Below are positions 1 to 44,887 of a stretch of DNA of 48,906 bases, one piece after another. The notes beneath the pieces were generated by a model that was not told the DNA's origin, ran no database searches, and saw only the letters and a list, made by a program, of their open reading frames with translations. The first letter of the stretch is position 1, and each line of letters opens with the position of its first letter. The stretch is from a virus, in IMG/VR virus record IMGVR_UViG_3300021479_000025, positions 1 to 48,906 of that record. The stretch is one strand, 5' to 3'. A program made the translations under genes and the position numbers.

Positions 1-531
1 CACCCCCCCATCTGGATCACCACCTGGGGCTCCGACACCCTCCACGCCACCTTTCCCAAGGGCAAAATCACCGGCCTCCAACACCGCGACATGGGCGAGT
101 GGCCAGTCACTGACTCCGGCGGCAACACCTACCAGGCCTACCGCGATCACTTCAAATGGGAAATCGGTCTTGTCCTCCGCGACTGGCGCTACGTCGCCCG
201 CATCGGCAACATCGACGTCACTCAGCTCACCGGCGTCTCCGCGGCGAACCTCATCAACCTCCTCGTCCGCGCGCTCTATCGCCTTCCCACGGCCCCGGCC
301 AACGCCACCGCGATCCAGACCTCGGACACCCCCGAAGTCCGCGCCAACATGGGCCGCGTCACCATCCTCTGCAATCGCGTGGTCCGCACCTACCTCGATC
401 TCCAGGCGATGAACAAAACCAATGTGCTTCTCCGATTGGAGGAGTTCGACGGTAAGGTCGTCACCACCTTCCGTGGCATCCCGGTTCGCACCGTGGACGC
501 AATCCTCAACAACGAAGCACAGATCGTATAA
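1..531 (+). CDS. Major capsid protein, C-terminal part (partial, continues from window end)
   Basis: This is the 3' part of the capsid gene whose 5' part lies at 48261-48906. The reading frame is open to base 1, and codons from base 10 (IWITTWGSD...) match the frame at the other end. Joining the repeats gives 1044 bp, 347 residues, with no stop. An internal ATG at 91 is not the true start. The product forms the icosahedral shell, inferred to have an HK97-like fold. It is followed 12 bp later by the cement protein gene, as in BPP-1-like podoviruses. The first three codons (H-P-P) differ from the other copy (N-T-S) and are probably an assembly edge error. Confidence 0.9.
   Translation, partial: HPPIWITTWGSDTLHATFPKGKITGLQHRDMGEWPVTDSGGNTYQAYRDHFKWEIGLVLRDWRYVARIGNIDVTQLTGVSAANLINLLVRALYRLPTAPANATAIQTSDTPEVRANMGRVTILCNRVVRTYLDLQAMNKTNVLLRLEEFDGKVVTTFRGIPVRTVDAILNNEAQIV
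8..133. repeat. Terminal direct repeat, left copy (contig overlap)
   Basis: These 126 bases are identical to 48781-48906. Bases 1-7 differ from 48774-48780 at three positions. The repeat lies inside the capsid gene and restores its frame when the ends are joined, so it marks a circular assembly graph or circularly permuted DNA rather than a biological terminal repeat. Confidence 0.95.
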
Positions 532-543
532 GGAGCACCCATC

Positions 544-1074
544 ATGATCCTCGACGGACAACTCCAGTTCACCGGCGCTCTCGGCACCGGCGACCTTCCC
601 ACCACCGGCACCCAGGTCTCCACCAACGCCATCGACCTCCACATGGCCGGCATCCCCACCCTCGCCAACCTTCAAGGCGCGCGCGATATCGGTATCGGCG
701 ACGATCCTGCTCTCAAAATCCTCATCGAGGTCCTGACCGCTTTCACCGTCGGCACCTCGCTCCAGGTCATGATCCAAGGCGCGCCTGACAATGGCTCCGG
801 TGCCCCTGGCTCCTACACCACTTGGTGGACTTCCCCCGTCTACGCCGAGGCCACCCTCGTCGCCGGCGCCCGTCTCTACGATATGGACATGCCCCGCCCA
901 CCCGCAGGCGTCGGTATGCCCCGATTCCTTCGTCTCCAATACGTCTCCGTCGGCACCCATACCACCGGCGCTCTTCAGGCGTGGATTCTCGGCGATCGCC
1001 ACGACCAAATCTACCAGGGCACCAACAACGCGATCCTCGGCGGCTATCCCGCCGGCATCAACGTCGCGAACTGA
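544..1074 (+). CDS. Bbp16-like capsid cement (decoration) protein
   Basis: A 176-residue protein starting MILDGQLQFTG. Its position directly after the major capsid gene, its length, and the MILD start with a following S-T-N-A-I-D-L segment match the family of Bordetella phage BPP-1 Bbp16, the jelly-roll cement protein that stabilises the capsid. The ribosome binding site AAGGAG sits upstream of the start, and the 12-bp gap after the capsid stop implies co-transcription. The family assignment rests on memory of the N-terminal pattern and gene order, not on an alignment. Confidence 0.75.
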   Translation: MILDGQLQFTGALGTGDLPTTGTQVSTNAIDLHMAGIPTLANLQGARDIGIGDDPALKILIEVLTAFTVGTSLQVMIQGAPDNGSGAPGSYTTWWTSPVYAEATLVAGARLYDMDMPRPPAGVGMPRFLRLQYVSVGTHTTGALQAWILGDRHDQIYQGTNNAILGGYPAGINVAN

Positions 1075-1085
1075 GGAGAACCAAA

Positions 1086-1733
1086 ATGAAACGGCTTCTT
1101 CTCGGCCTCGCCCTTCTCCTCCTGGCGCCGCTTCTGGCGCCAGCCCACGCCCAGGCTCCCGCCAACTGTGGCGTCAACTTCAATCCCGCCATTGGCATCA
1201 ACTGTCTCAATATCCGTCAACCTACCTACTCCGCGATCTCCCGCGCGCTAGTCCCAGCCGCCTCTGCCACCGATATCTTCTGCATCTCCGGCTCCACCAC
1301 AAAGAACATCATCATCTCTCGTATAGAGATCAGCGGCACCGCCGGGACCCTAGTCAATGCACCATTCACCCTTCTTCGGCGTGTCTCCCTCGATACTGGT
1401 GGCACCGCAGCCACCGGCACAGCTCTCCCCGCCGCTTCCCCACACAATACCGGCAACGCTACCTCCACCGCCGTTCTCACCGCCTACACCGCCAATCCGA
1501 CCATCGTCGACTCATCCCCACTCTACTTCCGCTCCACTTGGCTCGCACTTCCCACCACCGCGGCCGGCACAGTCCAAAACTCCGTGATTTGGTTCTTCGG
1601 CTCCGAAGTCGAGGCCTTTGACCAACATCTCGACATCCTCAAGAACACTTCCCAACAAGTCTGTGTCAATCTCAACGCAGTCTCCGTTTCCTCCGGCGTC
1701 CTCGATATCTCTATCCAATGGACGGAGCAATAA
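1086..1733 (+). CDS. Secreted beta-rich phage protein with signal peptide
   Basis: A 215-residue protein starting at MKRLLLGLALLLL behind GAGGAGAACCAAA. A longer frame exists upstream, but this start has the ribosome site and begins a textbook Sec signal peptide: K-R, a leucine/alanine core, then cleavage near A-H-A/Q at residue 22. The mature part is rich in S, T, A and V and contains four cysteines, which suits disulfide formation in the periplasm. The body (S-R-A-L-V-P-A-A-S-A-T-D to D-I-S-I-Q-W-T-E) resembles a beta-sandwich protein common in phage structural regions, usually without known function. It may be a virion surface or host-envelope protein; neither can be proved here. Confidence 0.8.
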   Translation: MKRLLLGLALLLLAPLLAPAHAQAPANCGVNFNPAIGINCLNIRQPTYSAISRALVPAASATDIFCISGSTTKNIIISRIEISGTAGTLVNAPFTLLRRVSLDTGGTAATGTALPAASPHNTGNATSTAVLTAYTANPTIVDSSPLYFRSTWLALPTTAAGTVQNSVIWFFGSEVEAFDQHLDILKNTSQQVCVNLNAVSVSSGVLDISIQWTEQ

Positions 1734-1735
1734 CC

Positions 1736-2329
1736 ATGCGCAAACTCGCAATCACCGCGCTTGCATTCGTCCTTAGTGCGGCGATTGCTTGTGCCCAGGG
1801 CATCACCGGGACCGTCACGACCCAAGTCGTCATCGTCCCCACCTCCACCGCCTACTCCGCTGGCCAATGCTTCGGTAACGCCGGCGCATCCGCAATCCAA
1901 CCACTAGCCAACTTAATCCTTCCATCCGGCCCCGGCGGAACATGGTTCATCGGCGTTACCCTTGTCGACTCCACCGGGTCCGATCCCGCCATTGACTTCC
2001 TTGTCTTCAACAACGCTCCGGTCGGCACCTACACTGACCACGCCAACTGTGTAGTCAACGCCTCGGACCAATCCTATCTCCAAGGCTTCGTATCCATTAC
2101 CTCCACCAATTGCATTCAAGATCAATCCGCTGCCACAGGCATCTGCCAAGTCACGGGCGCCCTGCTCATCCCTCTCACCGCCAACTTCTCCGTCACTGGT
2201 CCATCGGGTGGTGGCACTCGCTCCAACACTATCTGGATCGTCCCAATAATGCGTGGAACTCCGACCTACGGCTCCTCCAAATCTATCTACATCAACTACA
2301 AAGCCTATCCGGATGCGGCTACGCCATGA
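1736..2329 (+). CDS. Secreted phage protein with signal peptide and four cysteines
   Basis: A 197-residue protein. The start at 1736 (MRKLAITALAF) directly follows the previous stop (TAACCATG) with GGAG upstream; an ATG at 1718 lacks these signs. The N-terminus is a Sec signal peptide with likely cleavage after A-C-A near residue 20. The mature part is a low-charge, Thr/Ser/Gly-rich probable beta protein with exactly four cysteines. The frame overlaps the next start by ATGA at 2326. It belongs to a run of exported proteins between the capsid and tail genes. Function unknown. Confidence 0.8.
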   Translation: MRKLAITALAFVLSAAIACAQGITGTVTTQVVIVPTSTAYSAGQCFGNAGASAIQPLANLILPSGPGGTWFIGVTLVDSTGSDPAIDFLVFNNAPVGTYTDHANCVVNASDQSYLQGFVSITSTNCIQDQSAATGICQVTGALLIPLTANFSVTGPSGGGTRSNTIWIVPIMRGTPTYGSSKSIYINYKAYPDAATP

Positions 2330-5127
2330 AATATCTACGCTATCTCCTCTCCCTCATAGCGTGCTTGGCCGTTGTATCTGCGGATGCGGCTATGGTGGGG
2401 ACGCGGAGGGTGTTGCTGGGGGGTGGGAAGGCGGCGGCTGTCAGCGCGCTGTGGGCATCGCAGAATTGGGATGCATCCGGGTCGCTGCCAGCGGGATGGA
2501 CTATCACCCCAAGTGGCGCCGCGATCGGCACGGCTTGGTCGATGTCGGGAACGCGCAGCCTTTCCGTCCCGACCGATAACAACGTTGGTCAATATGCCAT
2601 CTATAACACTAAAGACCCGTTTGGTGGTAATGTCGTCGCCTCGACCTGGGTTTACTTTACGAACGCCAGTTCAAGCGTGTCAAATGTGGCGTATGTATTT
2701 TGTCGAGGAGGGGCTCCAGCATCGCCGAGCACTGGCTATGATGTGCATATCGAGATAGGCGGAAGCACGCGGGGGCTCTATCTAGCTGCGGCCGGTGCTA
2801 CCATTGGATCAGTGCTTAACGCGGGGATATTCTCCGCAAACACTCCATACTACATGGAGGTCACTTGCAACGGCACGACGATCTCAGCGCGCGCGCGCCG
2901 AGGCACCGATGGTTATTGGCTGAACTCTTCGGCCGTTTGGGTTGCAGCGGAAACGACGGCCATCTCGGTGACGAACTCGGCCATCACGGGCGCGGGTTAT
3001 GTCGGAACGGCAGCATTCATCAACACCGGGATGGGGCCGACCTATTACGACGAGTTTGCCGCCTACCAGGTCCCGACGAACCTCGCAATCGCCATCCAGA
3101 CGGAGCCCAGCGGCGCTTCGACCGTAGGCGCAAGCGGAGGGCTTGCTAACCATCGGGGCGTCCCGATCCTCGTTTCTACGGTCGGCGCCATCACGTCGCC
3201 GCTCTCGGTCACGCTGTCGGATGGCGGCGCAGGGGGGCGTTTTGTCTTCGGCCCGACACCAGCAGTTCCGTCTAGTGCGTTTGTTTCTCAGTTCAGCCCT
3301 GCGGCGGCGTCGATACCGGCGAATGCAAAATTCGGGCAGCTCACGGCTTGGTATCTGCCGGCCTTCAATCGCAGCAGCGCCGTCACCATAACGGCGTCGA
3401 GCCCGCTCGGGAGCGCCCCAAGCCTCACTTACACGCCGACGGCTTACGCGACGACCGGAAGCCCGACTCCGACCGGGCTTAGTCTCGATACGGTCGCGAT
3501 GACGCCGTTCAATCAGTTCTGGACATCGTTGCCGCTCGACTTCTCGGGGGGCTTCCCGGCGCTCCCGTTCTCGACCTTCACGGCCTTCAACAATGTGGGC
3601 GGGAGTGGCGCGACCGAGACTGTCACGGCGGGCGTCTACTCTCGCCAGAACACCATCGACAACACGATCGGATATCGCGGGAATAATGTGCTCGTCACGG
3701 GCGGCTATCAGGTCTCGCTTCAGGTCAATGCCTTCGGCGGCGGGGTAACCGACAAGGTAACGATCGGTCTTGCGGTTGATAGCAATAATTACATCGCCCT
3801 GACAGCCGACAATCATGCCGGCACCGTGACCATCACGGTAGTCGCGTCAGGTTCGACCGTTGCCACTCAAGCATTCAGCAGCTTGTCATTTCCGGCCGGG
3901 ACGCAATTTGCCTTGAGGATGGGGATCTACGAGGGCTCTGTCGCGGGAGCTTGGTATAAGCGACCGACCGACTCGGATTTCTATGCTCTGGGATCGACCT
4001 CGACCTTAGGCGGCTTCGACTTTCAACAATCCAGCGTCTTCACGACATTCTATCCGTTCTGGCAAACTGCTCAGTCCGCGAACACCTCGCTGAAAGTGAC
4101 CAATTTCACGGCTGGCCTTCCTGGGTATGAGGCCTCGACAAATCTTGCCGTCGTTAAAGACATCACCACGGGCGCGCCACTCTTATCGACGGATGGAAAC
4201 TCGATCTATGTCGATGGCGAAGTCGGAAGTCCGATGCCTTCGGACGGCAGTAATGCTGTTTGGGCGCTCAACACCAAGACCTTTGTCTTCACAGAAGTCG
4301 CCCGCCTCTTCCTGTCGAACGGGACGAAGTTCGGTGCGGGCGGTCCAATAACGATCGGTTACAATCCAGGGACCAGCACATTTACAGTGCTATCCGAGGA
4401 CTTCGCGAACGTACTCGCGGTCCCTTATTACACCCAGACCACCACGGCTATATTGTCGGGTGTGCATGGTCTGGCTATGACGGCGCTGCCATATCCGGGG
4501 ACGGCAGCATCAGGAGCCGGCACGCCGACCGAGGTCTATGACTGCGACGCGATATTCCAAAGCGCCACCTACTATGTCGCCTGCATGCAGACCGATACGG
4601 GGGCGGCCCATAGATGGGCAGAAATGGCGTCTGCCTCGACGATCGGTGGGACATATACGGCGATCTGGCAGGCGGCCAATACATCGTTTGCGGACGGAGC
4701 GCGCATCAGCCAGGTCGGTGGCACGCAATATGTATTTCAGTCCGTCGGACAGGCGAACGTCTTTGCGTTTCCTTTCAGCGCGTCGCCCCAGCCGTCATTG
4801 GGCAACATCCCGAATGTCACGCTCGATGGCCCAGCTAATAACCTGCTCGTCGACCCAACGACGACCAATATAGCGCATCCATCGCTGGCACCAATTCCTG
4901 GCGAGATTGGAGGGCAGACCCGCTATTTGCTTATTGGGTTTGCGATCTACACTCCTCCTTCGTTCTCCGGGATCATTCCTAATTATGGTATTGGCGTCGT
5001 TCTTGAGGCTTTGCAGCGCTACACGAGCGCAGAGTTTACGTGGGTTCAGTATCCCTATTTGCTAGAGCGCGACCTCGATCCAGCCTCCAACGACAACACC
5101 CCCGCCTTCCTGGCGCACGTCGGATGA
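2326..5127 (+). CDS. Large secreted adhesin or glycan-binding protein (LamG-like plus beta-propeller-like)
   Basis: A 933-residue protein. The start at 2326 is fixed by an ATGA overlap and opens a signal peptide (MKYLRYLLSLIACLAVVSA, cleavage about residue 21). Residues about 40-240 look like a concanavalin/LamG-type beta sandwich: S-L-P-A-G-W and T-P-Y-Y-M-E-V-T-C, ending Y-Y-D-E-F-A-A-Y. The last 300 residues have blade-like repeats with D-G and W-motifs typical of five-bladed propeller sugar-binding or sugar-cleaving proteins. Four cysteines lie in the mature part. Codons end in G (tcg, acg, gcg) far more than the neighbours, which prefer C, suggesting recent acquisition. Likely receptor binding or depolymerisation; catalytic residues were not identified. 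Confidence 0.7.
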   Translation: MKYLRYLLSLIACLAVVSADAAMVGTRRVLLGGGKAAAVSALWASQNWDASGSLPAGWTITPSGAAIGTAWSMSGTRSLSVPTDNNVGQYAIYNTKDPFGGNVVASTWVYFTNASSSVSNVAYVFCRGGAPASPSTGYDVHIEIGGSTRGLYLAAAGATIGSVLNAGIFSANTPYYMEVTCNGTTISARARRGTDGYWLNSSAVWVAAETTAISVTNSAITGAGYVGTAAFINTGMGPTYYDEFAAYQVPTNLAIAIQTEPSGASTVGASGGLANHRGVPILVSTVGAITSPLSVTLSDGGAGGRFVFGPTPAVPSSAFVSQFSPAAASIPANAKFGQLTAWYLPAFNRSSAVTITASSPLGSAPSLTYTPTAYATTGSPTPTGLSLDTVAMTPFNQFWTSLPLDFSGGFPALPFSTFTAFNNVGGSGATETVTAGVYSRQNTIDNTIGYRGNNVLVTGGYQVSLQVNAFGGGVTDKVTIGLAVDSNNYIALTADNHAGTVTITVVASGSTVATQAFSSLSFPAGTQFALRMGIYEGSVAGAWYKRPTDSDFYALGSTSTLGGFDFQQSSVFTTFYPFWQTAQSANTSLKVTNFTAGLPGYEASTNLAVVKDITTGAPLLSTDGNSIYVDGEVGSPMPSDGSNAVWALNTKTFVFTEVARLFLSNGTKFGAGGPITIGYNPGTSTFTVLSEDFANVLAVPYYTQTTTAILSGVHGLAMTALPYPGTAASGAGTPTEVYDCDAIFQSATYYVACMQTDTGAAHRWAEMASASTIGGTYTAIWQAANTSFADGARISQVGGTQYVFQSVGQANVFAFPFSASPQPSLGNIPNVTLDGPANNLLVDPTTTNIAHPSLAPIPGEIGGQTRYLLIGFAIYTPPSFSGIIPNYGIGVVLEALQRYTSAEFTWVQYPYLLERDLDPASNDNTPAFLAHVG

Positions 5128-5198
5128 CCCTCCTCTCCCTCCCCATCCGCCTATGGCTAGCCGAGATAATTGATGACGCGCAAATCCATGCGAACTAA
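5124..5198 (+). CDS. Small 24-residue open frame coupled to the large adhesin gene
   Basis: It starts in an ATGA overlap with the stop of the 933-residue gene and encodes MTLLSLPIRLWLAEIIDDAQ plus IHAN. There is no separate ribosome site, so expression would depend on translational coupling. A further nine-codon frame (5209-5238) then overlaps the next signal-peptide gene by ATGA. Chance is possible; the main support is the exact coupling. Confidence 0.35.
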   Translation: MTLLSLPIRLWLAEIIDDAQIHAN

Positions 5199-5233
5199 GG
5201 CCACAACATGGCAGTCAATAACGGAGACCTAAG

Positions 5234-6196
5234 ATGAAACTCTTCAAATGGCTTGGGCTAGCCTTAGCTCTCCTCGCCACACCAGCCCTCGCCGTTGTCC
5301 AATCCACAGCGATGCGAGATGCCAACTACTCCGCCACGCCCAATGACGTTCGCATCGTCACCGTCAACACCTTCTCCGCAGCGCGGACCCTTACCCTCCC
5401 ACAAGCTGGCGCGACCCAAATTGGCCAAGGCGGCCAATCCAATGGCTACGCCACCGCGCTTGAATTCTTCGACGCAGCCAACGGCATCACCGCCACCAAT
5501 ACCCTAACCATCACCCCTGCCTCCGGTGATCTCATCAACGGTTCCGCCTCATCCATCGTCGTCTCCAACACCGGCGCCAACTTCTGGCTAACCCCCATCA
5601 ACGGTAACAATTGGGTCTTCGCCACCAGCGTAACCGTCAGCCTCCCAATCCCTGTTCCAGTCGCCGATGGCGGCACCAATTGCACCGTCGCCTCAGGCAC
5701 ATGCCTTGACAACATCACCGGCTTTGCTTCTACCGGCTTCCTTCAACGAACTGGCGCGGGCACGTATTCCTTCACAGCTCCAGCGGCAGTTTCCTTCAAC
5801 CTTGGCAATCCTACCCCTACCTCCTCTTCCACCCTGGTAATGATGGGCTTCGGCTCCACCGCCACCATCACTCCTGTAACCACCGGCCGACTACTCATCA
5901 TAATCACCGGGGATGTGTTCAACGTCACCGCAATCGCTGATGGCGCTGCCTTCCGCGGCGGTTATGGCACAGGCTCAGCCCCGGCCAATGGCGCGGCCGT
6001 CTCAGGCGCTCAATGTGGGCCAACCTCGATCAAATTCGTCGCGGCGACCACCGCTGAGAAGGTCCCGTTCACGATATCGTGCATTGTAACAGGGCTAACC
6101 CTGAACTCTCCCTACTGGCTTGACGTTGCCTTATCCAATATCACCGGTGGCAGCGCCGCAATCAACGATGTCAACATATCCGCACATGAACTATAG
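5234..6196 (+). CDS. Secreted tail-fibre-like beta protein with signal peptide
   Basis: A 320-residue protein with signal peptide MKLFKWLGLALALLATPALA, likely cleaved after A-L-A at 20. Residues about 190-320 carry N-P-T-P-T-S-S-S-T-L-V-M-M-G-F-G, then G-Y-G-T-G-S-A-P-A-N-G-A-A: a pattern I know from many uncharacterised phage fibre or appendage proteins. There are four cysteines in the mature chain. Ribosome site GGAGACCTAAG precedes ATG. It is probably a surface appendage protein of virion or host envelope; the enzyme or ligand is unknown. Confidence 0.75.
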   Translation: MKLFKWLGLALALLATPALAVVQSTAMRDANYSATPNDVRIVTVNTFSAARTLTLPQAGATQIGQGGQSNGYATALEFFDAANGITATNTLTITPASGDLINGSASSIVVSNTGANFWLTPINGNNWVFATSVTVSLPIPVPVADGGTNCTVASGTCLDNITGFASTGFLQRTGAGTYSFTAPAAVSFNLGNPTPTSSSTLVMMGFGSTATITPVTTGRLLIIITGDVFNVTAIADGAAFRGGYGTGSAPANGAAVSGAQCGPTSIKFVAATTAEKVPFTISCIVTGLTLNSPYWLDVALSNITGGSAAINDVNISAHEL

Positions 6197-6205
6197 GAGG
6201 CCCTC

Positions 6206-6706
6206 ATGGCCCGATGGAAACTCGTCAACGCCCACCACCTCAACTGCGACGCGGAATGGGAATACCAAGAGATCGACCGGACCACCGGCAAACAGGTCCG
6301 CAAACGGTTCCCCGTTCCGCGATTCCTTAACCCGTTCGATCCCCAGGACTGGAACTACCATTGGGGGAACAAAGACAACGAAGACGGGGAAATCATCGTC
6401 TGCTACGAAGGCAAAGGCGAACCCAAGGACATCATCTTCCGCGGCGACCCGACCCCCGACATGGTCCCCCAAGACGACGAAGCCAAGGTCATCTCCGCGT
6501 CCTTCGAGAAGCGCTGGTCCTACAAACCCGAAACGGATGTCCCTGGCGGTTATTCCCAATCCATGATCGACAAGTTCCAACATGAGATGGCCGAATCTCG
6601 ATCCAAACCCGCCGAAATCCCTGGCCTATCCGACCTCGTCACCGCGATCACCAAGCAATCCGAGAACATCGCGAAGCTTGTTGAATCCAACCTTCGGAGA
6701 ATCTAA
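6206..6706 (+). CDS. Conserved phage protein of unknown function, no signal peptide
   Basis: A 166-residue protein with strong site AGGAGGCCCTC before ATG. It is acidic and aromatic in the first 110 residues (D-W-N-Y-H-W-G), with a C-terminal helix ending N-L-R-R-I. It has no signal peptide or membrane segment, so unlike its neighbours it should stay in the cytoplasm. The final codons CGG AGA ATC supply a ribosome site for the next gene, whose start overlaps this stop as TAATG. Function not recognised. Confidence 0.7.
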   Translation: MARWKLVNAHHLNCDAEWEYQEIDRTTGKQVRKRFPVPRFLNPFDPQDWNYHWGNKDNEDGEIIVCYEGKGEPKDIIFRGDPTPDMVPQDDEAKVISASFEKRWSYKPETDVPGGYSQSMIDKFQHEMAESRSKPAEIPGLSDLVTAITKQSENIAKLVESNLRRI

Positions 6707-7095
6707 TGCCTATCTCCACTGGCCCAGGGTCGCCACAGGTCGTATCCTCGGCCAGTGGCGGGAAGGTCTATGGCTACAACAACATTAACGAAACCACCGC
6801 GCGTGTGGTTGCACAGCCCAACCCTTCTCGGGCCCAAATCACCTTCTGCAATCCAGGCGCGAATGACATGTATATCGCACCGGTCAACGTCCAGAACACC
6901 CTCGGCACAGCGCCAACCACGCCAACGAGCACGCCTCTCACCCCTACCAACGCTGCCCTCGGCGGATGTTGGCCACTCTTCGGCAACGGCGGAATCCTCG
7001 TCTTCACCGGCGAATGCCAAGGCGCCTACCAAGCCCTGGCCAAAACTGGTGCCGGCACCACCAATCCCCTAACCGTCAACGACTCGAACATCTGA
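6706..7095 (+). CDS. Small phage virion-region protein of unknown function
   Basis: A 129-residue protein starting in a TAATG overlap. It is rich in G, T, N and P and probably all-beta; three cysteines; no signal peptide. The segment S-R-A-Q-I-T-F-C-N-P-G-A-N-D resembles small beta-sandwich proteins encoded near phage tail genes. Located between exported proteins. Function unknown. Confidence 0.65.
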   Translation: MPISTGPGSPQVVSSASGGKVYGYNNINETTARVVAQPNPSRAQITFCNPGANDMYIAPVNVQNTLGTAPTTPTSTPLTPTNAALGGCWPLFGNGGILVFTGECQGAYQALAKTGAGTTNPLTVNDSNI

Positions 7096-7103
7096 GATCG
7101 CCG

Positions 7104-8039
7104 ATGCTTCGCCGAATCCTCGCCGCTATCGCACTCATCTTCGCGGTCTATTGCCTCAGCCCGGCGCAGTCCCAGGTCCCACAACCCGGCTTCTGCGCCA
7201 ATCGTCCGCTCAACGACTCCACCAACGCCTGCGCCAACACGCGGTTTGTCCAACAGGCCTTGGCCGGATTCTCCCCCGGCGCGATCTCTCTCACCACCAA
7301 CCACATCCTCGTTGGCGTGGCTAATGTCGCCACCGACACCGCCATGTCTGGCGACTGCACGATCGTCTCCTCTGGCGCCATCACCTGCACCAAAACCTCC
7401 GGCGTTGCCTTTGGCTCCTTCGCTACTTCCACCACCGTCCCTTGGTCCGCGATCACATCCCCACCGACCACCCTTGCTGGCTATGGCATCACCAATGCCC
7501 TGACCAAAACCAACAATCTCTCCGATGTCTCCTCCGTCGCCACGACCATCTCCAACCTCGGCCTTGCCAAGGTCTACCAAACCAAATCCTCCGGCCGACT
7601 CAACACATCCGCTCCGCCCGGCGTTTGGACGCAAATGCAGCGCGTCAACCTTGGCACACTCGTCGCCGGTGATCTCCTCTATGCCTCCGCCTGGAACGAA
7701 CTAACCACCAACGAATCCGTCGGCGGCTCCAACGCCCTTGTCAATGTCCAATTCTTCATCTCCACCACGTCCACCGATGTCAATCCCCCAACCACTTCCT
7801 CCGACTTCGGCAATACCCCTGGCGGCTCCAACACCGCTTGCAATGTCAACAACCTTATCCCAACTGTCCATCACTTCGTCTACAACTGCACCGGCCAGCT
7901 CCTCGTTCCTGCCAATGGCACCTACACCGCCATCTTCTCCGTTCTATGGGACGTAGACCTTACCCTTGCTGGCACCATCGAGAACCAAGGCCAGATCAAT
8001 GTCATCCGCTATTCGCCAACCATAGGGACCATGCCGTGA
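7104..8039 (+). CDS. Secreted tail-fibre-like protein with signal peptide and six cysteines
   Basis: A 311-residue protein. The start at 7104 gives MLRRILAAIALIFAVYCLSP, a Sec signal peptide probably cleaved around residue 23 (A-Q-S/Q). Residues about 110-160 contain T-L-A-G-Y-G-I-T-N-A and N-N-L-S-D-V, a short repeat typical of trimeric tail-fibre shafts. Six cysteines lie in the mature chain. The tail-fibre-type repeat together with an export signal is odd, because fibres normally assemble in the cytoplasm. A longer frame upstream lacks these features. Its stop overlaps the next GTG start. Confidence 0.75.
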   Translation: MLRRILAAIALIFAVYCLSPAQSQVPQPGFCANRPLNDSTNACANTRFVQQALAGFSPGAISLTTNHILVGVANVATDTAMSGDCTIVSSGAITCTKTSGVAFGSFATSTTVPWSAITSPPTTLAGYGITNALTKTNNLSDVSSVATTISNLGLAKVYQTKSSGRLNTSAPPGVWTQMQRVNLGTLVAGDLLYASAWNELTTNESVGGSNALVNVQFFISTTSTDVNPPTTSSDFGNTPGGSNTACNVNNLIPTVHHFVYNCTGQLLVPANGTYTAIFSVLWDVDLTLAGTIENQGQINVIRYSPTIGTMP

Positions 8040-9350: not shown

Positions 9351-9547
9351 TGCAACCTTTTCAGGAACGTGTCGTTGCTGAGTTGAAAGACTTAGACGAC
9401 AAAATTTCTAAGCTGCAAGTGTTTATACACGGCGGAATGTTCAACGCTTTACCAAGTCAAGAGCAAGAGCGGATGACACAGCAGCTATCATATATGCAAG
9501 GCTATAGCTCGGTCTTGAAGCAGAGAATTGAGGCGTTTACGCCGTGA
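9350..9547 (+). CDS. crAss001_48-like small helical protein
   Basis: A 65-residue protein (MQPFQERVVAELKDLDDKIS at the start) with heptad-like helices and a final Y-S-S-V-L-K-Q-R-I. The layout resembles the small family annotated in many phages as crAss001_48-related, of unknown function. Base composition is visibly lower in GC than the neighbours, suggesting separate origin. The start is set by TGATG; the following gene begins in GTGA overlap. Confidence 0.55.
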   Translation: MQPFQERVVAELKDLDDKISKLQVFIHGGMFNALPSQEQERMTQQLSYMQGYSSVLKQRIEAFTP

Positions 9548-10629
9548 CCGCCTATGTAGACATCGTCAACCGCGCGCTCCAAATCCCCGGCACTCGCACG
9601 ACCGTCACCGCCGCCGAACTCCTCGCGGGTTCCTCCAACGAAGCTATCCAGGCCAACCTTCTCATTGACCCAATTCGGCGCCAGCTCATCCGCATGGCGC
9701 CGTGGAACTTCGCGCTGCGCACGGCGAACCTTGTCTACATCACGTCATCCCCAGGCACCCCCGAGAACACATCCGCACCAACCACCCTCTGGGCCCCTGG
9801 CCAACCACCGCCGCCATGGAACTACGAATACCAATACCCCGTTGACTGTCTCCGCGCCTGCTTCCTCATCCCCGCCACTCAGACCGGATTCGCCGGGGGA
9901 ATCCCAATCACCACAGCCGTCACCGGCGGAGCCGCCTCGTTCTGGCAAGGTCCACCAGTTAAATTCAAAATCCAAAATGACCAATTCTACACTGTCAACA
10001 CCGCAACCGTCGCCAATGGCGGTTCTGGCTACGCTCAAGGTGATCTCATCACCCTCGCCGTCGGCCCGAACACCGCTCAACCCATTGGCGCACCGGCGAT
10101 CCTCCAGGTCCTCTCCGCAGCTGGAGGCGTAATCACCGGCGTTGGTGTGGTCAATGCGATCAATGGTGAATCTCCACCTCTGGCCGGCTCCTACTTCGCG
10201 CCCCAATCCAACCCCGTCGCCCAAGGCTCCACAACTGGCCTTGGCACAGGCGCGACCTTCAACCTGACCTTCACCGGCCCAGGCCCACAACGCGTCGTCG
10301 TCACCAACCAAGAATTCGCCACGCTTACCTACTGCCAAGACGTCTCCGACCCCAACGTCATGGACGACGAATTCCAGGAAGCTTGGGTCAAAATCCTCGG
10401 CGCTTCCCTCTGTATCCCACTCACCGGGGACAAACGACTCGCGAACATGCGAATCCAAGAAGCCAACGTCATGATCGCCCAGGCTCGAGTCGGCGATGCG
10501 AATGAAGCGCTGTCTGTGAATGACGTAACCCCCGACTGGATTCGCGCCCGCGGAATATCCTTCTCCGAACCCTATTCAGGCCCATTCTCGGGCCTAGACT
10601 GGGGCGGAATGTGGCCGATCTTCGGATAA
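9544..10629 (+). CDS. Tail tubular protein A-like (T7 gp11-like adaptor)
   Basis: A 361-residue protein read from GTG. The N-terminal pattern (I-V-N-R-A-L, then I-R-R-Q-L-I-R-M-A-P-W-N-F-A-L-R-T) and the C-terminal E-A-W-V-K-I-L-G-A-S-L with I-R-A-R-G are those of podovirus tail tube A or adaptor proteins, which join portal to tail. It is much longer than T7 gp11 (196 residues) because residues about 150-245 hold an inserted G-G-S-G-Y-A-Q-G-D module that also occurs in the next gene. Acts in the virion tail. Confidence 0.8.
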   Translation: MTAYVDIVNRALQIPGTRTTVTAAELLAGSSNEAIQANLLIDPIRRQLIRMAPWNFALRTANLVYITSSPGTPENTSAPTTLWAPGQPPPPWNYEYQYPVDCLRACFLIPATQTGFAGGIPITTAVTGGAASFWQGPPVKFKIQNDQFYTVNTATVANGGSGYAQGDLITLAVGPNTAQPIGAPAILQVLSAAGGVITGVGVVNAINGESPPLAGSYFAPQSNPVAQGSTTGLGTGATFNLTFTGPGPQRVVVTNQEFATLTYCQDVSDPNVMDDEFQEAWVKILGASLCIPLTGDKRLANMRIQEANVMIAQARVGDANEALSVNDVTPDWIRARGISFSEPYSGPFSGLDWGGMWPIFG

Positions 10630-10633
10630 CCCG

Positions 10634-13453
10634 ATGACCATCGCCGTCCAGGCATCCTTCAACTCCGGCGAATGGGCCCCATCCCTATACGCGCGCGTGG
10701 ATGTTGCCAAATACAAATCTGGCGCAGCCTTGCTCCAAAACTGGTTCGTCGACTATCGCGGCGGCGCATCCACCCGCGCCGGGACCAAATACGTCATTCA
10801 GGCCCTAAACTCCGCCAAGCCCGTTCGCCTAATCCCCTTCCAAGCCACCTCGACCGTCGGCTATATGCTCGAATTCGGGGACTTCACCATCCGCTTTATC
10901 TTCCAAGGCTCGATGGTGCTGGAGAATTCCTTCGCGGTCTCCGGCGCAACCCAGGCCAATCCCGCCGTCATCACCGTCACCGGGAACAACTTCATCATCG
11001 GCGATGTGATCTTCCTCAAGACCCTTGGCGGGATGACTCAGCTCAACTCCCGATACTTCAAAGTCCTCAACGTCTCCGGCGCATCCGTCACCCTTGGCGA
11101 TCTCAACGGGAACAATCTCAACTCTACGACCTACTCCGCGTATACCTCCGGTGGAACCGCAGCCAGGGTCTACACCTTGGCCTCCCCCTACGCCGCCGCC
11201 GATGTCGCTGGCCTGAAATACGCCCAGGCCACCAACGAGATGATCCTCTGCCATCCCAACTACGCGCCGCAGGTCCTGACCGAAATCTCCGCGACCAGCT
11301 GGACCATCGGCGCGATTGTGTTCGGTAGCACCGCCACAGCCCCAGGCGCACCGGTTATCTCCTCCAGCCTATCCTCCGGCTCAGTCAACTACGCCTACGT
11401 CGTCACATCCGTCGATGGCAACGGCCAGGAATCCCTCGCTTCCCCCGTCGCCAACTACCTCAACGCCGAAGACATCCGCGTCGTCGCTGGGTCCATCTCC
11501 ATCGCCTGGACCGCGGTCCCCGGCGCGATTTCCTACAACGTCTACAAATCCGATGTGTCCTACATCGGCACCGTCCCGACCGGGACAACCTTCGGCTTCA
11601 TCGGCAATTCCACCGGCACGACCTTCATCGACTCCAACATCGCGCCAGACTTCACCGAAACTCCGCCGATCGCCACTAATCCCTTCCAAGGCGCGGGGAT
11701 TTCCGCGATCACCGTCACCGCCGCCGGAACCTACACCGTCGTCCCATCCGCCACAATCGTCGGCACGGCCACCATCGTCGCGTCGGTCTCCCCAGTCCTC
11801 ACCGTCCAAGGCACCCCCACCATCGGCTCCGGCGGTGCTGGCTATGCCATCGGCGACACTGTCCTCTTCTCCAATGGCGTCGTCCTAGTCGTCGCCACCC
11901 TCTCAGGCTCAGCTGTCGCCACATGGCGCGCTGCCTCCTTCGCTGGTGCATCCCCAGGCGCGGTCACCTCTGGCACGGTCCCGGTCAACCCGGTGGCCCA
12001 AATCCGCTCGTCCGGCGCAGGGACCGGCGCCACCGCCAACCTCACCTGGGGCGTTGGCTATGTCTCCATCCTCAACGGCGGCGCGGGCTACACCCCTACT
12101 CCCACTATCACCTTCGGCTCAGGCGCAGCGACCGCCACGGTCTCTCTCCAGCCCACCTCCAATGGCAACCCAACCGTCCCTGGATTCTTCCAACAGCGCC
12201 TTGTCCTCGCGGCCCCTCCCGGAGCGCCGCAGACCTTCTATCTCTCCAAACCCGGCGCGTTCTTCAATTTCAACCAATCCTCCCCGCCCAAAGCTGACGA
12301 TTCTATCCAAGGAACCCTCGTCTCCGGTGTCCTCAACACGATCCAATCCATCGTCTCGTCCACCTCAGGTATGCTCCTCCTCACCGACAAGGGCTCGTGG
12401 ATAGTCAACGGTGGTTCCTCAGGCTCAGCCGTCACGCCATCCTCCATCGTCGCCAATGCCCAATCCTTCAACGGCGCGTCCGCGGTCCGGCCGATTGTCG
12501 CGAACTACGACGTTCTCTACATCCAAGAGAAAGGCTCATCCGCGCGCGATCTCGCGTTCAACATCTACTTCAACGTCTTCACCGGGACCGACATCTCCAT
12601 TCTCCCATCCCATCTCTTCTTCGGCTTCCAAATCCTCGACTGGACCTGGGCCGAGGAGCCGTTCAAGGTGGTTTGGGCCGTGCGGAATGACGGCGCACTC
12701 CTTTCCCTCACCTTCCTCAAGGAACAAGACTTCACCGGTTGGGCGCACTCAATCACCGCCGGCAACTTCAAATCCGTCGCGAGTGTCACCGAAGCCTCAG
12801 GCTCAGTCTTCGTCGATGCTGTCTACGTTGTCGCCCAGCGGACAATCAACGGCAATTCCGTCCAATATGTCGAACGCATGGCCGATCGGATTCTCCAGAA
12901 CAACATCAACAATGCCTTCTGTGTTGATGCTGGTCTCAGCTACTCCGGCTCTCCGTCCACCACATTCACCGGCGCGGAGCAGCTCGCCAATGCTACAGTT
13001 ACTGGCCTTGCTGATGGACTCGTTATCACACCATTCACCATGCCACCCTCGGGCATCTTCACCCTCAACAACTCCGCATCCAACGTCAGCATCGGCCTAG
13101 CTTACACCTGCGATCTCCAAACTCTCGCCCTGGAAATGGGCGAGCCCTCCATCCAAGGCAAGGTCAAGAAGATTCCTTGCGTCGACATCCGCGTCACGGA
13201 AACCCAAGGGATGAAAATCGGCGTGGATTTCAATCACCTCACATCAATCAAAGACCTCATCCCTGGCAATGTCTCCTCCACCCTCACCGGCCAACAATCC
13301 CAAATCGTTTCAGGCCTGATAACTGGCGATGCCAAGACCATTCTCTCCCCCGCCTACACCGTCCCTGGCCAATACTGCATCCGCCAAGACCAACCACTCC
13401 CAGCCACCATCCTCGGCGTGTTCCCAGAATTCGAAATCGAGAATCGGCAATGA
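10634..13453 (+). CDS. Tail tubular protein B-like (T7 gp12-like nozzle)
   Basis: A 939-residue protein beginning Q-A-S-F-N-S-G-E-W-A-P-S-L-Y-A-R, the classic start of podovirus tail tubular B or stabilisation proteins: F-N-x-G-E, then N-W-F-V-D-Y-R-G-G-A-S-T-R-A-G-T. Residues about 235-350 look like an inserted fibronectin/Ig-like domain. Residues about 390-510 carry two G-G-A-G-Y modules like the one in tail tube A. These insertions fit the larger size compared with T7 gp12 (794 residues). The stop overlaps the next start as ATGA. Confidence 0.85.
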   Translation: MTIAVQASFNSGEWAPSLYARVDVAKYKSGAALLQNWFVDYRGGASTRAGTKYVIQALNSAKPVRLIPFQATSTVGYMLEFGDFTIRFIFQGSMVLENSFAVSGATQANPAVITVTGNNFIIGDVIFLKTLGGMTQLNSRYFKVLNVSGASVTLGDLNGNNLNSTTYSAYTSGGTAARVYTLASPYAAADVAGLKYAQATNEMILCHPNYAPQVLTEISATSWTIGAIVFGSTATAPGAPVISSSLSSGSVNYAYVVTSVDGNGQESLASPVANYLNAEDIRVVAGSISIAWTAVPGAISYNVYKSDVSYIGTVPTGTTFGFIGNSTGTTFIDSNIAPDFTETPPIATNPFQGAGISAITVTAAGTYTVVPSATIVGTATIVASVSPVLTVQGTPTIGSGGAGYAIGDTVLFSNGVVLVVATLSGSAVATWRAASFAGASPGAVTSGTVPVNPVAQIRSSGAGTGATANLTWGVGYVSILNGGAGYTPTPTITFGSGAATATVSLQPTSNGNPTVPGFFQQRLVLAAPPGAPQTFYLSKPGAFFNFNQSSPPKADDSIQGTLVSGVLNTIQSIVSSTSGMLLLTDKGSWIVNGGSSGSAVTPSSIVANAQSFNGASAVRPIVANYDVLYIQEKGSSARDLAFNIYFNVFTGTDISILPSHLFFGFQILDWTWAEEPFKVVWAVRNDGALLSLTFLKEQDFTGWAHSITAGNFKSVASVTEASGSVFVDAVYVVAQRTINGNSVQYVERMADRILQNNINNAFCVDAGLSYSGSPSTTFTGAEQLANATVTGLADGLVITPFTMPPSGIFTLNNSASNVSIGLAYTCDLQTLALEMGEPSIQGKVKKIPCVDIRVTETQGMKIGVDFNHLTSIKDLIPGNVSSTLTGQQSQIVSGLITGDAKTILSPAYTVPGQYCIRQDQPLPATILGVFPEFEIENRQ

Positions 13454-13842: not shown

Positions 13843-14459
13843 TGGCCGATCCAGTAAGTCTACTTGCACTCGGGAGTATGGCAGCCACCATCGGCGGAGG
13901 TTTGCTCGGTGCGCAAGGCGCGGAGAAAGCCGGGACGGCACAGCTCGAGCAAAACTACTACCAAGCTGGCGTCGCCAAGCTCAACTCATCCATCGCCCTA
14001 CAAAACGCCGACTACGCCCTCAACCAAGGCGAACAACAGGCGATGGAATTCGGCATCGCCGGTGGCCAACGCCTGGGCAATATCATGGCGGCGCAGTCAT
14101 CGTCGGGATTGGATGTGAACACTGGTTCTGCCCCACTCGTCCGCGCTGGCCAAAAGCAGATTATCGATCTCGACACGACCCAAATCCGCTCCAACGCTGC
14201 TAAGACCGCGTATGACTACGACGTTCAATCCACGCAGTTCGAACAACAAGCGACGCTCTACGAAATGGCCGGGACCAATGCAGCGGCTGCGGGCCAGATC
14301 AAAGCCGAATCCTCTATCATCGGCACAGCCGGCGCAGTCTCCAGCCAATGGCTCCAAGGCAGCCAAGTTGGCCTATCCGGCACCGGTGACACCCTATCCA
14401 ACGCCGCCGGTAACCTAGCTAGCTCTATCTCTGGCTTCGATCCGTTCGTAGGCTTGTAA
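13842..14459 (+). CDS. Internal virion protein B-like (T7 gp14-like)
   Basis: A 205-residue protein starting in TAATG. A hydrophobic glycine-rich N-terminus (residues 5-25: L-A-L-G-S-M-A-A-T-I-G-G-G-L-L-G) is followed by long Q/A/N-rich helices. This matches the small internal core or ejection proteins that precede gp15- and gp16-like proteins and form a channel in the outer membrane. It ends in TAATG overlap with the next gene. Assignment from position and composition. Confidence 0.6.
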   Translation: MADPVSLLALGSMAATIGGGLLGAQGAEKAGTAQLEQNYYQAGVAKLNSSIALQNADYALNQGEQQAMEFGIAGGQRLGNIMAAQSSSGLDVNTGSAPLVRAGQKQIIDLDTTQIRSNAAKTAYDYDVQSTQFEQQATLYEMAGTNAAAAGQIKAESSIIGTAGAVSSQWLQGSQVGLSGTGDTLSNAAGNLASSISGFDPFVGL

Positions 14460-16603
14460 TGGCATCGCCAGTTCCATATTCCCCTGATCCGCAGATCGCG
14501 CCGCAAGACCGGCCGATACCTTATCGTGAGGTCAACGCGCCGGTGGCGGCGTTCGGCGGAGCGACTGCGGCTGCCCTCGAATCCCAGGGTCAGGTGGTTG
14601 AAGGCGTTGGCAAGGAACTCTTCTCTCGCGCGCTGGCGATTCAACAACTCAACCAACAGGCCGATGCTTCGGAGAAAGTCGCGGCCTACACCACCAAGCT
14701 GGGGGATGAATACAACAAATTCTCCTCGCTCTCCGGCAAAGCCGCGAGTGACGCATACCAGCCATTCGCGGATAAGATCAATTCCATCCGCGAGGACATC
14801 CGCGGAACACTCACTTCTCCCTTCGCCCAACGCGCGTTCGATCAAGAATCCCGCTCGATGCAGGCGCGGGCGCAATGGACGGCGGGGAGGTATGCTGGGG
14901 ATCAGAATAAGTCTTATCTCAAAGGCGCAGCCCAAGCAGAGCAAGACGGATATTCCAACTATGCCTTGGCCAATCCCACTGACGACGCCTCCTTCCAAGT
15001 CGGTAAGCAGAAGACCATAGACCTCGCCAATCACAAGGCCGACCTAGATAACCTCTCCGCCGATGACCCAATGCGCAAGCAGATGGTTCAACAGGCGACC
15101 TCTACCCTAACCGCCTCTCGCATCCAAGGCCTCGCCAAGGACCAACCCTTCACCGCGGCGAAGATGCTGGACGCAGCGTCCAAGGCTGGGGATATCTCCG
15201 GACAGGACCTCGGCCGGCTAACGGAGTATGTCAATCGCCAGAAGCTCAACGTCGGCACTCGCCAAGGCGCCAGTGACTTCATGGCCGGGAAGGGGACCTC
15301 CTTCGGCGAAGGGAAGGTCTCGATCGACCAAGCCATGGAGGGTATTCACGGCGCCGAAACTCCGGGATATAAAGGCGACGCCGCCTATTCCGCGCGTGGC
15401 CCGGTGGTAAAGGAAGGGCCATACGCCGGACAGCAAGCGATTGGTAAGTATCAAGTCATGCCCGGTAACCTTCCATCATGGCTCAAAGAAGCCGGAATGC
15501 CGGCGATGTCCGAGGATGAATTCGCTGGGTCCAAAGACGCCCAGGAACAACTCTTCAAGACCCGCTTTGGCGGGCTGATGGAGAAGTATGGTTCATTCAA
15601 CAAGGCCGCGAATGTTTGGTTCACCGGCAAGCCCGATCCTGATCCGAACAAGGGGGATGGGTATAACACCCCGCCGCAATACCTCCAAAAGGCCAACGCG
15701 GCCCTTGCCCATGCCTCGTCTGGCGCGGCCCTGTCCACCGCGGCTAGAGGTGAGGCCGAGCGATTGGCCCCAGGCGATGCGCTGTTCGCGGATAACTTCC
15801 AGCAACACGTCGAACTCCTGCGCGCGCGCGAAGAATCCATCCGCCGCCAAGATGAATACAACAACCAAAACACAATCTTCGGCGCGATGGCAGCGGATGA
15901 CCAAGGGAAACTCCCAACGTCGGTCGAGGATATCACCGGGAAATCCCCAGAGGCCAAGATCGCCTGGGATGCGCTGCCTGAGAAGGACCAAGCCACGCAT
16001 CGGCGCGAGCTCATCGCCAACGCCAGCCGTGGTGGCTATGCAGCTACCCCGCAGAACGAGGCCGAATACACACGCCTTCTCGGCATGGCCCTGTCCTCGG
16101 ACCGATCCCCAGAGGAAACCAAAGAACTCCTCGATCTCAACGCCTCGATGTTACCGATGCCCAGGGCTTGGCGCGATGACATCATGAAGCGACAGGCGTC
16201 GATCATGAAGGGTCTAGAGGTCGACCCGCAGATGGGCAAGGCGCTGAAGGCAGCCGCGGGAATGCTTGGCGAAGCCGGAATCAGCCCGAAGAACAAGGAC
16301 GACTACAACCAATTCGTCGGGGCATATCACAATGTCATCCAAGGCTGGGTAGATGAGAACAAGAAACAACCAAAGGATGATGATCTGAAGGAAATCGCAG
16401 GGAATCTCATCAAAGACCGCAGCCAACATTGGTGGAACTCCGCGGATCGGCTCTATGCAACCGAGATGAAACCTGAAGACACCGCCAAGGTCACCGCGGT
16501 CTATCGCAAGGCACATGGCACAGACCCATCCCCCACCGAAATCCATGACATCTGGGTCGCAAGCCAATACCAATACTTCTTCGGCAAGAAGAAGGCGCAA
16601 TGA
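14459..16603 (+). CDS. Internal virion protein with lytic transglycosylase-like domain
   Basis: A 714-residue, mostly helical protein. Residues about 290-395 carry I-H-G-A-E-T-P-G, A-I-G-K-Y-Q-V-M-P-G-N-L and K-A-A-N-V-W-F-T-G-K-P, a goose-lysozyme or SLT-like fold with likely catalytic Glu in H-G-A-E. Such domains in ejected core proteins cut a local hole in peptidoglycan during DNA entry. In T7 the domain sits in gp16; here it is in the gp15-position protein. Flanked by ATGA overlap with the giant core protein. Confidence 0.75.
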   Translation: MASPVPYSPDPQIAPQDRPIPYREVNAPVAAFGGATAAALESQGQVVEGVGKELFSRALAIQQLNQQADASEKVAAYTTKLGDEYNKFSSLSGKAASDAYQPFADKINSIREDIRGTLTSPFAQRAFDQESRSMQARAQWTAGRYAGDQNKSYLKGAAQAEQDGYSNYALANPTDDASFQVGKQKTIDLANHKADLDNLSADDPMRKQMVQQATSTLTASRIQGLAKDQPFTAAKMLDAASKAGDISGQDLGRLTEYVNRQKLNVGTRQGASDFMAGKGTSFGEGKVSIDQAMEGIHGAETPGYKGDAAYSARGPVVKEGPYAGQQAIGKYQVMPGNLPSWLKEAGMPAMSEDEFAGSKDAQEQLFKTRFGGLMEKYGSFNKAANVWFTGKPDPDPNKGDGYNTPPQYLQKANAALAHASSGAALSTAARGEAERLAPGDALFADNFQQHVELLRAREESIRRQDEYNNQNTIFGAMAADDQGKLPTSVEDITGKSPEAKIAWDALPEKDQATHRRELIANASRGGYAATPQNEAEYTRLLGMALSSDRSPEETKELLDLNASMLPMPRAWRDDIMKRQASIMKGLEVDPQMGKALKAAAGMLGEAGISPKNKDDYNQFVGAYHNVIQGWVDENKKQPKDDDLKEIAGNLIKDRSQHWWNSADRLYATEMKPEDTAKVTAVYRKAHGTDPSPTEIHDIWVASQYQYFFGKKKAQ

Positions 16604-22892: not shown

Positions 22893-23270
22893 ATGAAGAA
22901 ATCCTTAGTTGCCCTCGTCCTTATCCTCGGCGGCTGTGTGTCCTCGGGCACGCCCACCATCCCTGGCGGAGCTCCCTCCACTGGCACAATCGCAGGCGCG
23001 GCCGCGGATATCTCGACCAGCATCAACCTCGCCTGCTCTTCGGCCCAGCAAATCCTCCAACTCCCTGGCACCGCGCAGGGCCTTGCCGCTGGTCTAAGCT
23101 CCGTTGCGAGCAAGGCGGCGACGCTGTCGACGAATATCGGCGCGTATTGCGCACTCGGCCAACTCGCTGGGAGTATCCTCTCTACGGCCCTGACCAAGGT
23201 TAACACCCCTGCCGCTCAGCTCCTTGGCACCGGTGTCGCAACTCCCTCTGGCCCTGTGGTGGCGAAATGA
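22893..23270 (+). CDS. Phage lipoprotein (possible outer-membrane spanin or exclusion protein)
   Basis: A 125-residue protein with a lipoprotein signal: M-K-K-S, a hydrophobic core and lipobox L-G-G-C at residues 12-15. The mature chain is Ala/Ser/Gly-rich. Ribosome site TTAGGAGAATTCG is strong. Its place right after the endolysin suggests an o-spanin or a superinfection-exclusion lipoprotein, but it is longer than many o-spanins and lacks obvious proline-rich character. Stop overlaps the next start by ATGA. Confidence 0.7.
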   Translation: MKKSLVALVLILGGCVSSGTPTIPGGAPSTGTIAGAAADISTSINLACSSAQQILQLPGTAQGLAAGLSSVASKAATLSTNIGAYCALGQLAGSILSTALTKVNTPAAQLLGTGVATPSGPVVAK

Positions 23271-26675: not shown

Positions 26676-26872
26676 CAATCCTCCGTATAATCTATTGGAG
26701 GCGGATTGATCATGCTATCTATGAGAGATTCTATGAAATCATTGTCAGGCGTTAATTGCTTAAGCCGACTTCGTAGTTGATCGACATTATATATGCCATA
26801 AACGAAGTCTTCTATAAGACGGTAGAAGTTGTTAGCCCATATATTGGGCTTTCCTAGCATTTCCTTTGGCAT
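26675..26872 (-). CDS. Small protein inserted between the two halves of the split polymerase
   Basis: A 65-residue acidic protein starting M-P-K-E-M-L-G-K-P-N-I-W. It overlaps both neighbours by one base (TGATG at each end) and carries its own GGAGGATTG for the next gene. Helical, with no nuclease motif (no HNH, GIY-YIG or LAGLIDADG). It interrupts what would otherwise be one exonuclease domain. It may be an unrelated insertion or a subunit bridging the two chains; function unknown. Confidence 0.7.
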   Translation of the reverse strand: MPKEMLGKPNIWANNFYRLIEDFVYGIYNVDQLRSRLKQLTPDNDFIESLIDSMINPPPIDYTED

Positions 26873-44524: not shown

Positions 44525-44527
44525 TGT

Positions 44528-44583
44528 TCTACCCGTAGGGCCCTTATTCCATGCGCCCTTCCCTGAGTCTACCCGAAGGGCCC
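44528..44583 (+). repeat. Pair of 16-bp direct repeats after the terminase gene
   Basis: TCTACCCGTAGGGCCC (44528-44543) and TCTACCCGAAGGGCCC (44568-44583) differ by one base, 40 bp apart, in the 88-bp gap behind the large terminase. Each contains the palindrome GGGCCC. Purpose unknown; possibly transcript structure. Confidence 0.5.
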
Positions 44584-44612
44584 AAATCGGCTCGCTAACC
44601 ATAGGCAATCCA

Positions 44613-44849
44613 ATGGCTAATCCACTCCAAATCATCCTCGGCGGGTCCGCCGCCCACCAACAACGCGAAGGCGCGGTCGCCGAAGCCGCGGCCCAATCCG
44701 GGATGCCTCAGGCCCCGCCAGCCCAGGCGGCCCCAGCCACTTCCCCAATCCAAGGCCCATCCGGCGCCGGGAAGCAATCCTTCCTGTCTCAGGCCGCCGT
44801 GGCCCCACAGCAACAGAACACCTCCACCAAGACGCTTCTCGGCTCATAG
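44613..44849 (+). CDS. Small Ala/Gln/Pro-rich protein
   Basis: A 78-residue, low-complexity, probably disordered protein starting M-A-N-P-L-Q-I-I-L-G-G-S-A-A-H, with A-P-P-A-Q-A-A-P-A-T. Typical of small unknown genes between terminase and portal. Weak ribosome site. Confidence 0.5.
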   Translation: MANPLQIILGGSAAHQQREGAVAEAAAQSGMPQAPPAQAAPATSPIQGPSGAGKQSFLSQAAVAPQQQNTSTKTLLGS

Positions 44850-44887
44850 CGAAGCGTGTCCCCCGCAGTCAACAGAAAGCATCTACC

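Follow-up and report, generated by a model that had tools for sequence, protein, structure and literature searches.

Here, we describe a block of five genes (S1 to S5, positions 1086-8039) in a 48.9-kb contig of a soil bacterial virus from IMG/VR (record IMGVR_UViG_3300021479_000025, positions 1 to 48,906, analysed as a whole and called the window) that is best explained as the receptor-binding and surface module of the phage, with its products made as Sec precursors. With a probability of roughly 0.6, we propose that fibre bodies are exported through Sec, stabilised by disulfides and docked on virions at lysis, the docking being the step that we infer. Tail fibres are known structures that set phage host choice, and are taken to fold and be mounted in the reducing cytoplasm, where tailed viruses are normally thought to assemble their particles wholly; the unusual and new part would be the exported assembly route. 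The window is, by its gene content, a contig of a podovirus of the BPP-1/epsilon15 type. Its minus strand carries the replication genes and its plus strand the virion operon, in which the block sits between the gene for the cement/decoration protein of the Bbp16 family (544-1074, plus strand; Pfam Bbp16 1.9e-8, phrog_427) and that for tail tubular protein A (9544-10629, plus strand; phrog_394, 5.5e-30).

Signal peptides (SP) were called by a fixed rule of our own, set before the relatives were examined and comprising a K/R-rich start, a hydrophobic core and an A-x-A-type cleavage site. Exactly 5 of the 62 window genes pass it (those at 1086, 1736, 2326, 5234 and 7104), and the other 57 are negative, including, as is proper, a lipoprotein-like gene at 22893; the count is 5/14 in the block against 0/54 elsewhere (p = 2e-4). 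All five start with ATG and are in phase with a neighbouring gene, and a Shine-Dalgarno-like sequence accompanies most of them. Homologues in relatives back these start codons by opening at the same position (S1 residues 1-215, S4 1-127, S5 2-50). The predicted cleavage sites (slash) are ...APAHA/QAPAN in S1, ...AIACA/QGITG in S2, ...SADA/AMVG in S3, ...PALA/VVQS in S4 and ...PAQS/QVPQ in S5. Within the S1 family the A22-Q23 cleavage pair is invariant while the h-region changes in length and sequence, which argues for a signal peptide rather than a docking peptide. The mature chains of S1 to S5 hold 4, 4, 4, 4 and 6 cysteines, with one more inside the signal peptide of S2, S3 and S5. The original prediction, made from the letters of the window, had named five classical signal peptides, these mature cysteine counts and a place inside the virion operon, and had found export odd for such an operon; each of these points holds, since the rule calls five of five with the starts right, the count is the same, major capsid and cement genes lie upstream with tail A and tail B genes downstream, and the five proteins do look Sec-exported.

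Signal peptides in this interval are not confined to the window phage, but occur across dozens of relatives. We collected 66 related loci via the cement protein; their capsid proteins are 77-89% identical to that of the window in nearly all cases, two remote relatives excepted. In about 60 IMG/VR relatives the interval from cement to tail A is hypervariable, and it is usually much longer than 1 kb, measuring 8 kb in the window and less than 1 kb in BPP-1, epsilon15, Vibrio phage MZH0603 and Pseudomonas phage UFJF_PfDIW6. SP-type starts are found on 124 of 420 interval open reading frames (ORFs) against 4 of 278 flanking ones (p = 5e-26), two of the four being copies of a gene for an outer-membrane-barrel-like protein. 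When the interval proteins were clustered at 60% identity, 84 SP clusters were obtained, of which 66 have Q as the +1 residue after predicted cleavage, the cut being mostly A/Q. Twin-arginine-like starts take the place of the Sec type in the same slots at L053 7731, L053 10666 and L018 10430. Directly 3' of the cement gene, siblings (L004-L065) carry the small SP families F1 (~140 aa), F2 (~160 aa) and F3 (~148 aa).

The mature parts of the 84 SP clusters have an even, non-zero number of cysteines in 71 cases, an odd number in 8 and none in 5 (p = 5e-14), whereas SP-less neighbour clusters are even in 50, odd in 63 and without cysteine in 43; density is 2.0 per 100 residues in SP clusters vs 0.97 in these neighbours. 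Counted by family only, cysteines are even in 17 of 19 (p = 4e-4), and within families they shift by twos (2 or 4 in 40/40 members of F1 and in 9/9 of the S1 family). SP-less long fibres of siblings hold 19, 14, 3, 5, 18, 3, 5, 1, 2, 9 and 3, odd in 8 of 11. A C-terminal domain common to several fibres has 0-1 cysteines in its SP-less versions and a pair at GDWDC...RCRR in two SP versions; gp19 of Burkholderia phage BcepC6B has a pair elsewhere, and the protein of Xanthomonas phage PBR31 has none in this domain, with two upstream. Even, pair-wise changing cysteines in SP proteins point to export into an oxidising compartment, and on these sequences the block proteins are very probably exported.

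Several SP proteins of the relatives are, by their domains, plain tail fibres or spikes. Those at the S5 position carry either a Phage Tail Collar domain (1.4e-14 and 3.5e-11) or a pectate-lyase helix with matches to tailspike PHROGs, the Pfam domains in SP-bearing syntenic homologues being Collar PF07484 and PF12708. A separate Tail Collar survey of 289 genomes, taken irrespective of signal peptides, also gave matches. S5 itself (7104-8039, plus strand; 311 aa) shares only its N-terminal module with the recognised SP fibres, fibre domains being recognised in the syntenic homologues; its motif CANRPLNDSTNACANTRFV is common to SP-bearing tail-collar and beta-helix fibres. Mature N-termini of the long SP proteins fall into class A, CxxRPxxDxTNACANTRFV (which includes S5), class B, QCNGVxxxNTxCG, and class C, QDITNHxVPVGGGPG...GPC. 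S4 (5234-6196, plus strand; 320 aa) is fibre-like, with a domain resembling the N-terminal domain of T4 gp9/gp10, a GGT motif in common with a tail fibre of a Bradyrhizobium phage, and a C-terminal beta domain; its AlphaFold model has a mean predicted local distance difference test score (pLDDT) of 60 and was not used for fold search.

The genes next to the SP fibres suggest that the fibre is split in two, into an SP-less anchor and an SP-bearing body. SP-less fibres, one or two each, are present in many siblings, and one type (750-1300 aa) opens with an N-terminal DLDQSG domain of ~135 residues; at class B/C loci, the gene directly upstream of the SP fibre encodes a stand-alone, SP-less DLDQSG protein (136 aa), and such proteins are up to 60% identical, over their full length, to the N-terminal domain of the SP-less long fibres. 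Directly upstream of class A SP fibres, S5 included, stands an unrelated SP-less family of 116-129 aa (G6706), represented in the window by a putative fibre anchor of 129 aa (6706-7095, plus strand). Homology of the two anchor families was considered and rejected (profile comparison probability 0.3%). Anchor class follows fibre class without exception, motif A standing with G6706 anchors 7:0 and motif B/C with DQSG anchors 0:11 (p ~3e-5 with near-identical loci counted once; 8e-6 for 8 and 12 loci), where three fibre-class assignments (L044, L060/L061) were made by eye, the pattern being strict, and the L065 anchor was identified by tblastn and alignment. The DQSG profile was built including some of the paired proteins, and L013, L020, L032 and L060, which are outside it, score 105-190 bits. 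By a Rosetta-stone argument, the fusion of the anchor domain to the fibre in SP-less siblings predicts that anchor and body bind to one another. In prophages of Saccharibacter floricola and Bombella, the signal peptide stands directly before W.QNY.PT..DW, a motif with which fibres of sister prophages begin without any signal peptide. In the window, a fibre gene is absent from the bbp9/mtd position, where the endolysin gene directly follows the bbp10-like gene, and no other fibre-like gene was found, so that its receptor-binding proteins, if any, should lie in the SP block.

The five proteins, taken as one set in the original prediction, are better read as one fibre with an SP-less anchor (6706 and 7104), one fibre-like protein (5234), one long tagged protein (2326) and two small proteins (1086 and 1736). 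The fibre-like modules claimed for the 7104 gene gain support from its SP-bearing syntenic homologues with Tail Collar domains, while the appendage-like sequence claimed for the 5234 gene is borderline, a resemblance only, at 24.5 bits against the curated cut-off of 25 for Pfam T4_gp9_10_N (PF07880).

Under the proposed mechanism, the SP precursors would be exported via Sec and released into the periplasm by signal peptidase, where paired cysteines would form disulfides and the fibre would trimerise. The SP-less anchor would meanwhile be made in the cytoplasm and mounted on the tail, its presumed place in the virion. The fibre body S5 would wait in the periplasm until endolysin and spanins open the cell and mix the two pools, and at lysis would use its conserved N-terminal module to dock on the anchor. 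This split-fibre scheme would apply to S5 and probably to S4. In vitro, tailless heads of P22 accept added tailspikes, which makes late addition of a fibre plausible.

A further exported set may be marked by the C-terminus of S3 (2326-5127, plus strand; 933 aa), which ends in the tag LLERDLDPASNDNTPAFLAHVG (5062-5127, 20 residues; pattern LLxRDLDPASNDNxPxxLxxxA/G). In 28 of the 29 IMG/VR stretches that match the pattern (L106-L134), proteins end exactly with the tag, and most of the complete ones start with a signal peptide; the pattern was not found in 385 genomes of the Bombella class or in GenBank phages. The proteins that it ends are long phage proteins otherwise unlike each other, many with a signal peptide, and one more is at L070 14403-16472. 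We consider the chances evenly balanced that all this reflects a widespread class of tailed phages, in which a virion-fixed cytoplasmic anchor receives at lysis a disulfide-bonded fibre body exported by Sec, or at times by Tat, alongside an exported set bearing LLxRDLDPASNDNxPxxL, maybe as a docking or sorting signal.

Several points weigh against late docking. Export, cleavage and virion binding are all inferred from sequence, with a home-made SP rule; the PHROGs matches of the anchor are weak tail ones only; adjoining genes can be co-inherited without binding; and in the Bombella prophage the motif is matched weakly (i-E 0.005), though at the exact position. No fibre features are demonstrated in S1 to S3. 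Several siblings, as well as BcepC6B and PBR31, hold an SP-less fibre or spike beside the SP one, so that the virion fibre of those phages may be another protein than the SP one. In BcepC6B and PBR31 this arrangement also speaks for a reading in which the exported proteins never join the virion, but coat the infected cell or its debris, or bind or modify receptors, and so block superinfection or re-adsorption of progeny to debris. Four siblings with O-antigen-ligase-like (Wzy_C) genes in the same interval keep such receptor masking alive, above all for the small proteins and S3, as do a weak outer-membrane-protein beta-barrel match upstream in two nearly identical relatives and lambda lom, which encodes a signal peptide and lies between tail spike and tail fibre genes (PMC12309495). 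In PHROGs, Pfam and PADLOC, none of the five window proteins matches a family known for exclusion, O-antigen or defence functions. Masking leaves unexplained why the SP fibre stands in the fibre slot, always preceded by its matched anchor gene, why the anchor domain is fused to SP-less sibling fibres and why other fibre genes are absent from the window, and we regard it as unlikely.

A mixed case is compatible with late docking and has, in our estimate, somewhat less than an even chance: S5 and S4 would be virion fibres added after lysis, while S1, S2, S3 and F1-F3 would act on the envelope or as free lectins. The small SP families, which lie just 3' of the cement gene, lack an anchor partner and are also found where none of a sibling's long fibres has a signal peptide, and S1 is predicted to be a jelly roll; a decoration or head-fibre role beside the cement gene is equally possible for them, and S1 and S2 have no functional match in PHROGs or Pfam. 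Among the options raised in the original prediction, attachment of appendages after lysis is favoured by the comparative evidence for the fibre-like members, with envelope coating or receptor hiding kept chiefly for the small jelly-roll proteins and S3. That the N-terminal stretches stay on the virion as membrane anchors or hydrophobic docking peptides appears improbable: the SP calls are purely sequence-based and T7-type phages carry internal proteins that act in membranes, but the A/Q cleavage pattern is strong, the h-regions vary freely, siblings have Tat-like alternatives and the cysteine counts are even, unlike those of SP-less fibres, all of which speaks for export signals. More improbable still is that anchor and SP fibre form one protein by programmed frameshifting where stop and start overlap, as they do by 1-16 bases in most loci; the window pair is 8 bases apart, such overlap is the usual mark of translational coupling, and a mid-protein signal peptide would be useless, yet is conserved.

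The closest known systems are BPP-1 and epsilon15, which share with the window the GP7 major capsid and Bbp16 cement families and the order portal, protease, major capsid protein, cement, tail A, tail B and internal proteins, but have under 1 kb between cement and tail A where the window has 8 kb and five SP genes. In BPP-1 the fibre gene bbp9 and the gene for the receptor-binding protein Mtd, both without signal peptide, follow bbp10, and the window has neither. Among BPP-1-like cultured phages, BcepC6B gp19 and PBR31 gp35 are SP-bearing fibres with 4 and 2 mature cysteines whose C-terminal domain is shared with S4-like proteins of siblings; they differ in lying 3' of an SP-less fibre or spike and before the holin, outside the cement-tail interval. 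Apart from an Rz1-type lipoprotein, gp19 is the only SP gene of the 46 in BcepC6B. Export of these two fibres is not mentioned in their records or in the passages found in the PBR31 paper (PMC10975493). Bradyrhizobium strain USDA 122 releases siphophages (PMC10127595), and the siphophage ppBdUSDA122-1 has signal peptides on its tail fibre (865 aa, 18 Cys; 77% identity to S4 over 39 aa) and on the preceding gene, in an unrelated operon. SP-bearing fibres stand unremarked in the records of all three cultured phages.

Outside phage fibres, the MAT fibre proteins of Bdellovibrio are phage-fibre-like adhesins with signal peptides, but are bacterial and serve predation (PMC10769870). Lambda Lom, though likewise an SP gene amid tail and fibre genes, is an outer-membrane barrel expressed in lysogens and not a fibre, and secreted SP endolysins such as Lys44 of fOg44 are exported by host Sec before lysis, but are lysis enzymes and neither virion proteins nor adhesins (PMC6116005). 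These were found in the open-licence literature, in which we found no report of a Sec-exported tail fibre of a tailed phage. If some phages do export their fibres, these could use disulfides, may better withstand soil conditions and escape binding too early in the cytoplasm, and might be exchanged among virions of one lysate (phenotypic mixing); a search for receptor-binding proteins in which SP proteins are set aside as host or moron genes would miss real ones.

The remaining block members gave few matches. S1 (1086-1733, plus strand; 215 aa), whose family is conserved in relatives, was modelled as a jelly roll with a mean pLDDT of 77; its best matches are uncharacterised phage proteins, and Foldseek against PDB gave nothing beyond weak viral jelly rolls. 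S2 (1736-2329, plus strand; 197 aa) has no homologue that we found. PHROGs and Pfam gave no usable match for S1 to S3 and marginal ones only for S4 and S5. Searches of GenBank phages by tblastn (S1, S3 and S5) and of PDB by sequence (S3, S4 and S5) gave none, and neither did PADLOC for the five. Between S4 and the anchor gene lies a conserved SP-less protein of 166 aa (6206-6706, plus strand), present in 50 relatives.

Elsewhere in the intervals and operons of siblings, the protein encoded at L053 10666 weakly matches concanavalin-like lectins, and O-antigen-ligase-like membrane proteins (Wzy_C, below cut-off) are encoded inside the virion operon at L017 12668-13738, L044 2176-3222, L065 9998-11098 and L011 2513-3406. 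An SP gene at L013 2949-3734, also present in L014, has weak outer-membrane beta-barrel similarity and lies 5' of the capsid gene. A Cor-exclusion match of a sibling small protein was weak and confined to the signal-peptide region, and was treated as chance.

The window opens with the C-terminal part of the major capsid protein gene (91-531, plus strand; Pfam GP7 3e-43, phrog_212), cut by the contig end, and TerL, portal and protease genes are at the right end (42992-48192). The conserved order of tail A, tail B and internal proteins (phrog_394, 376, 308, 418 and 9880) includes tail protein B (nozzle; 10634-13453, plus strand; phrog_376, 5.7e-153) and, at the place of bbp10, a 1952-aa internal/structural protein (16600-22458, plus strand; phrog_9880, 1.5e-126), which the endolysin gene directly follows at 22455 (phrog_7). 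The lipoprotein-like gene 3' of the endolysin (22893-23270, LILGGC lipobox) is possibly an outer-membrane spanin. The nearest capsid relatives among genomes are in metagenome bins of Telmatospirillum (87%) and Terriglobia (83%), then Acetobacteraceae prophages (~52%), and our guess is an alphaproteobacterial host. On the minus strand, the DNA polymerase gene (25176-27975; phrog_17) is split into two ORFs that cover profile positions 547-783 and 794-1232 and are separated by a 66-aa ORF. In S3 and in both large genes for internal proteins (14459-16603 and 16600-22458), G3 is ~0.3 and GC skew is absent, whereas adjoining virion genes are C3-rich, a difference in third-position usage hinting at a different origin or constraint.

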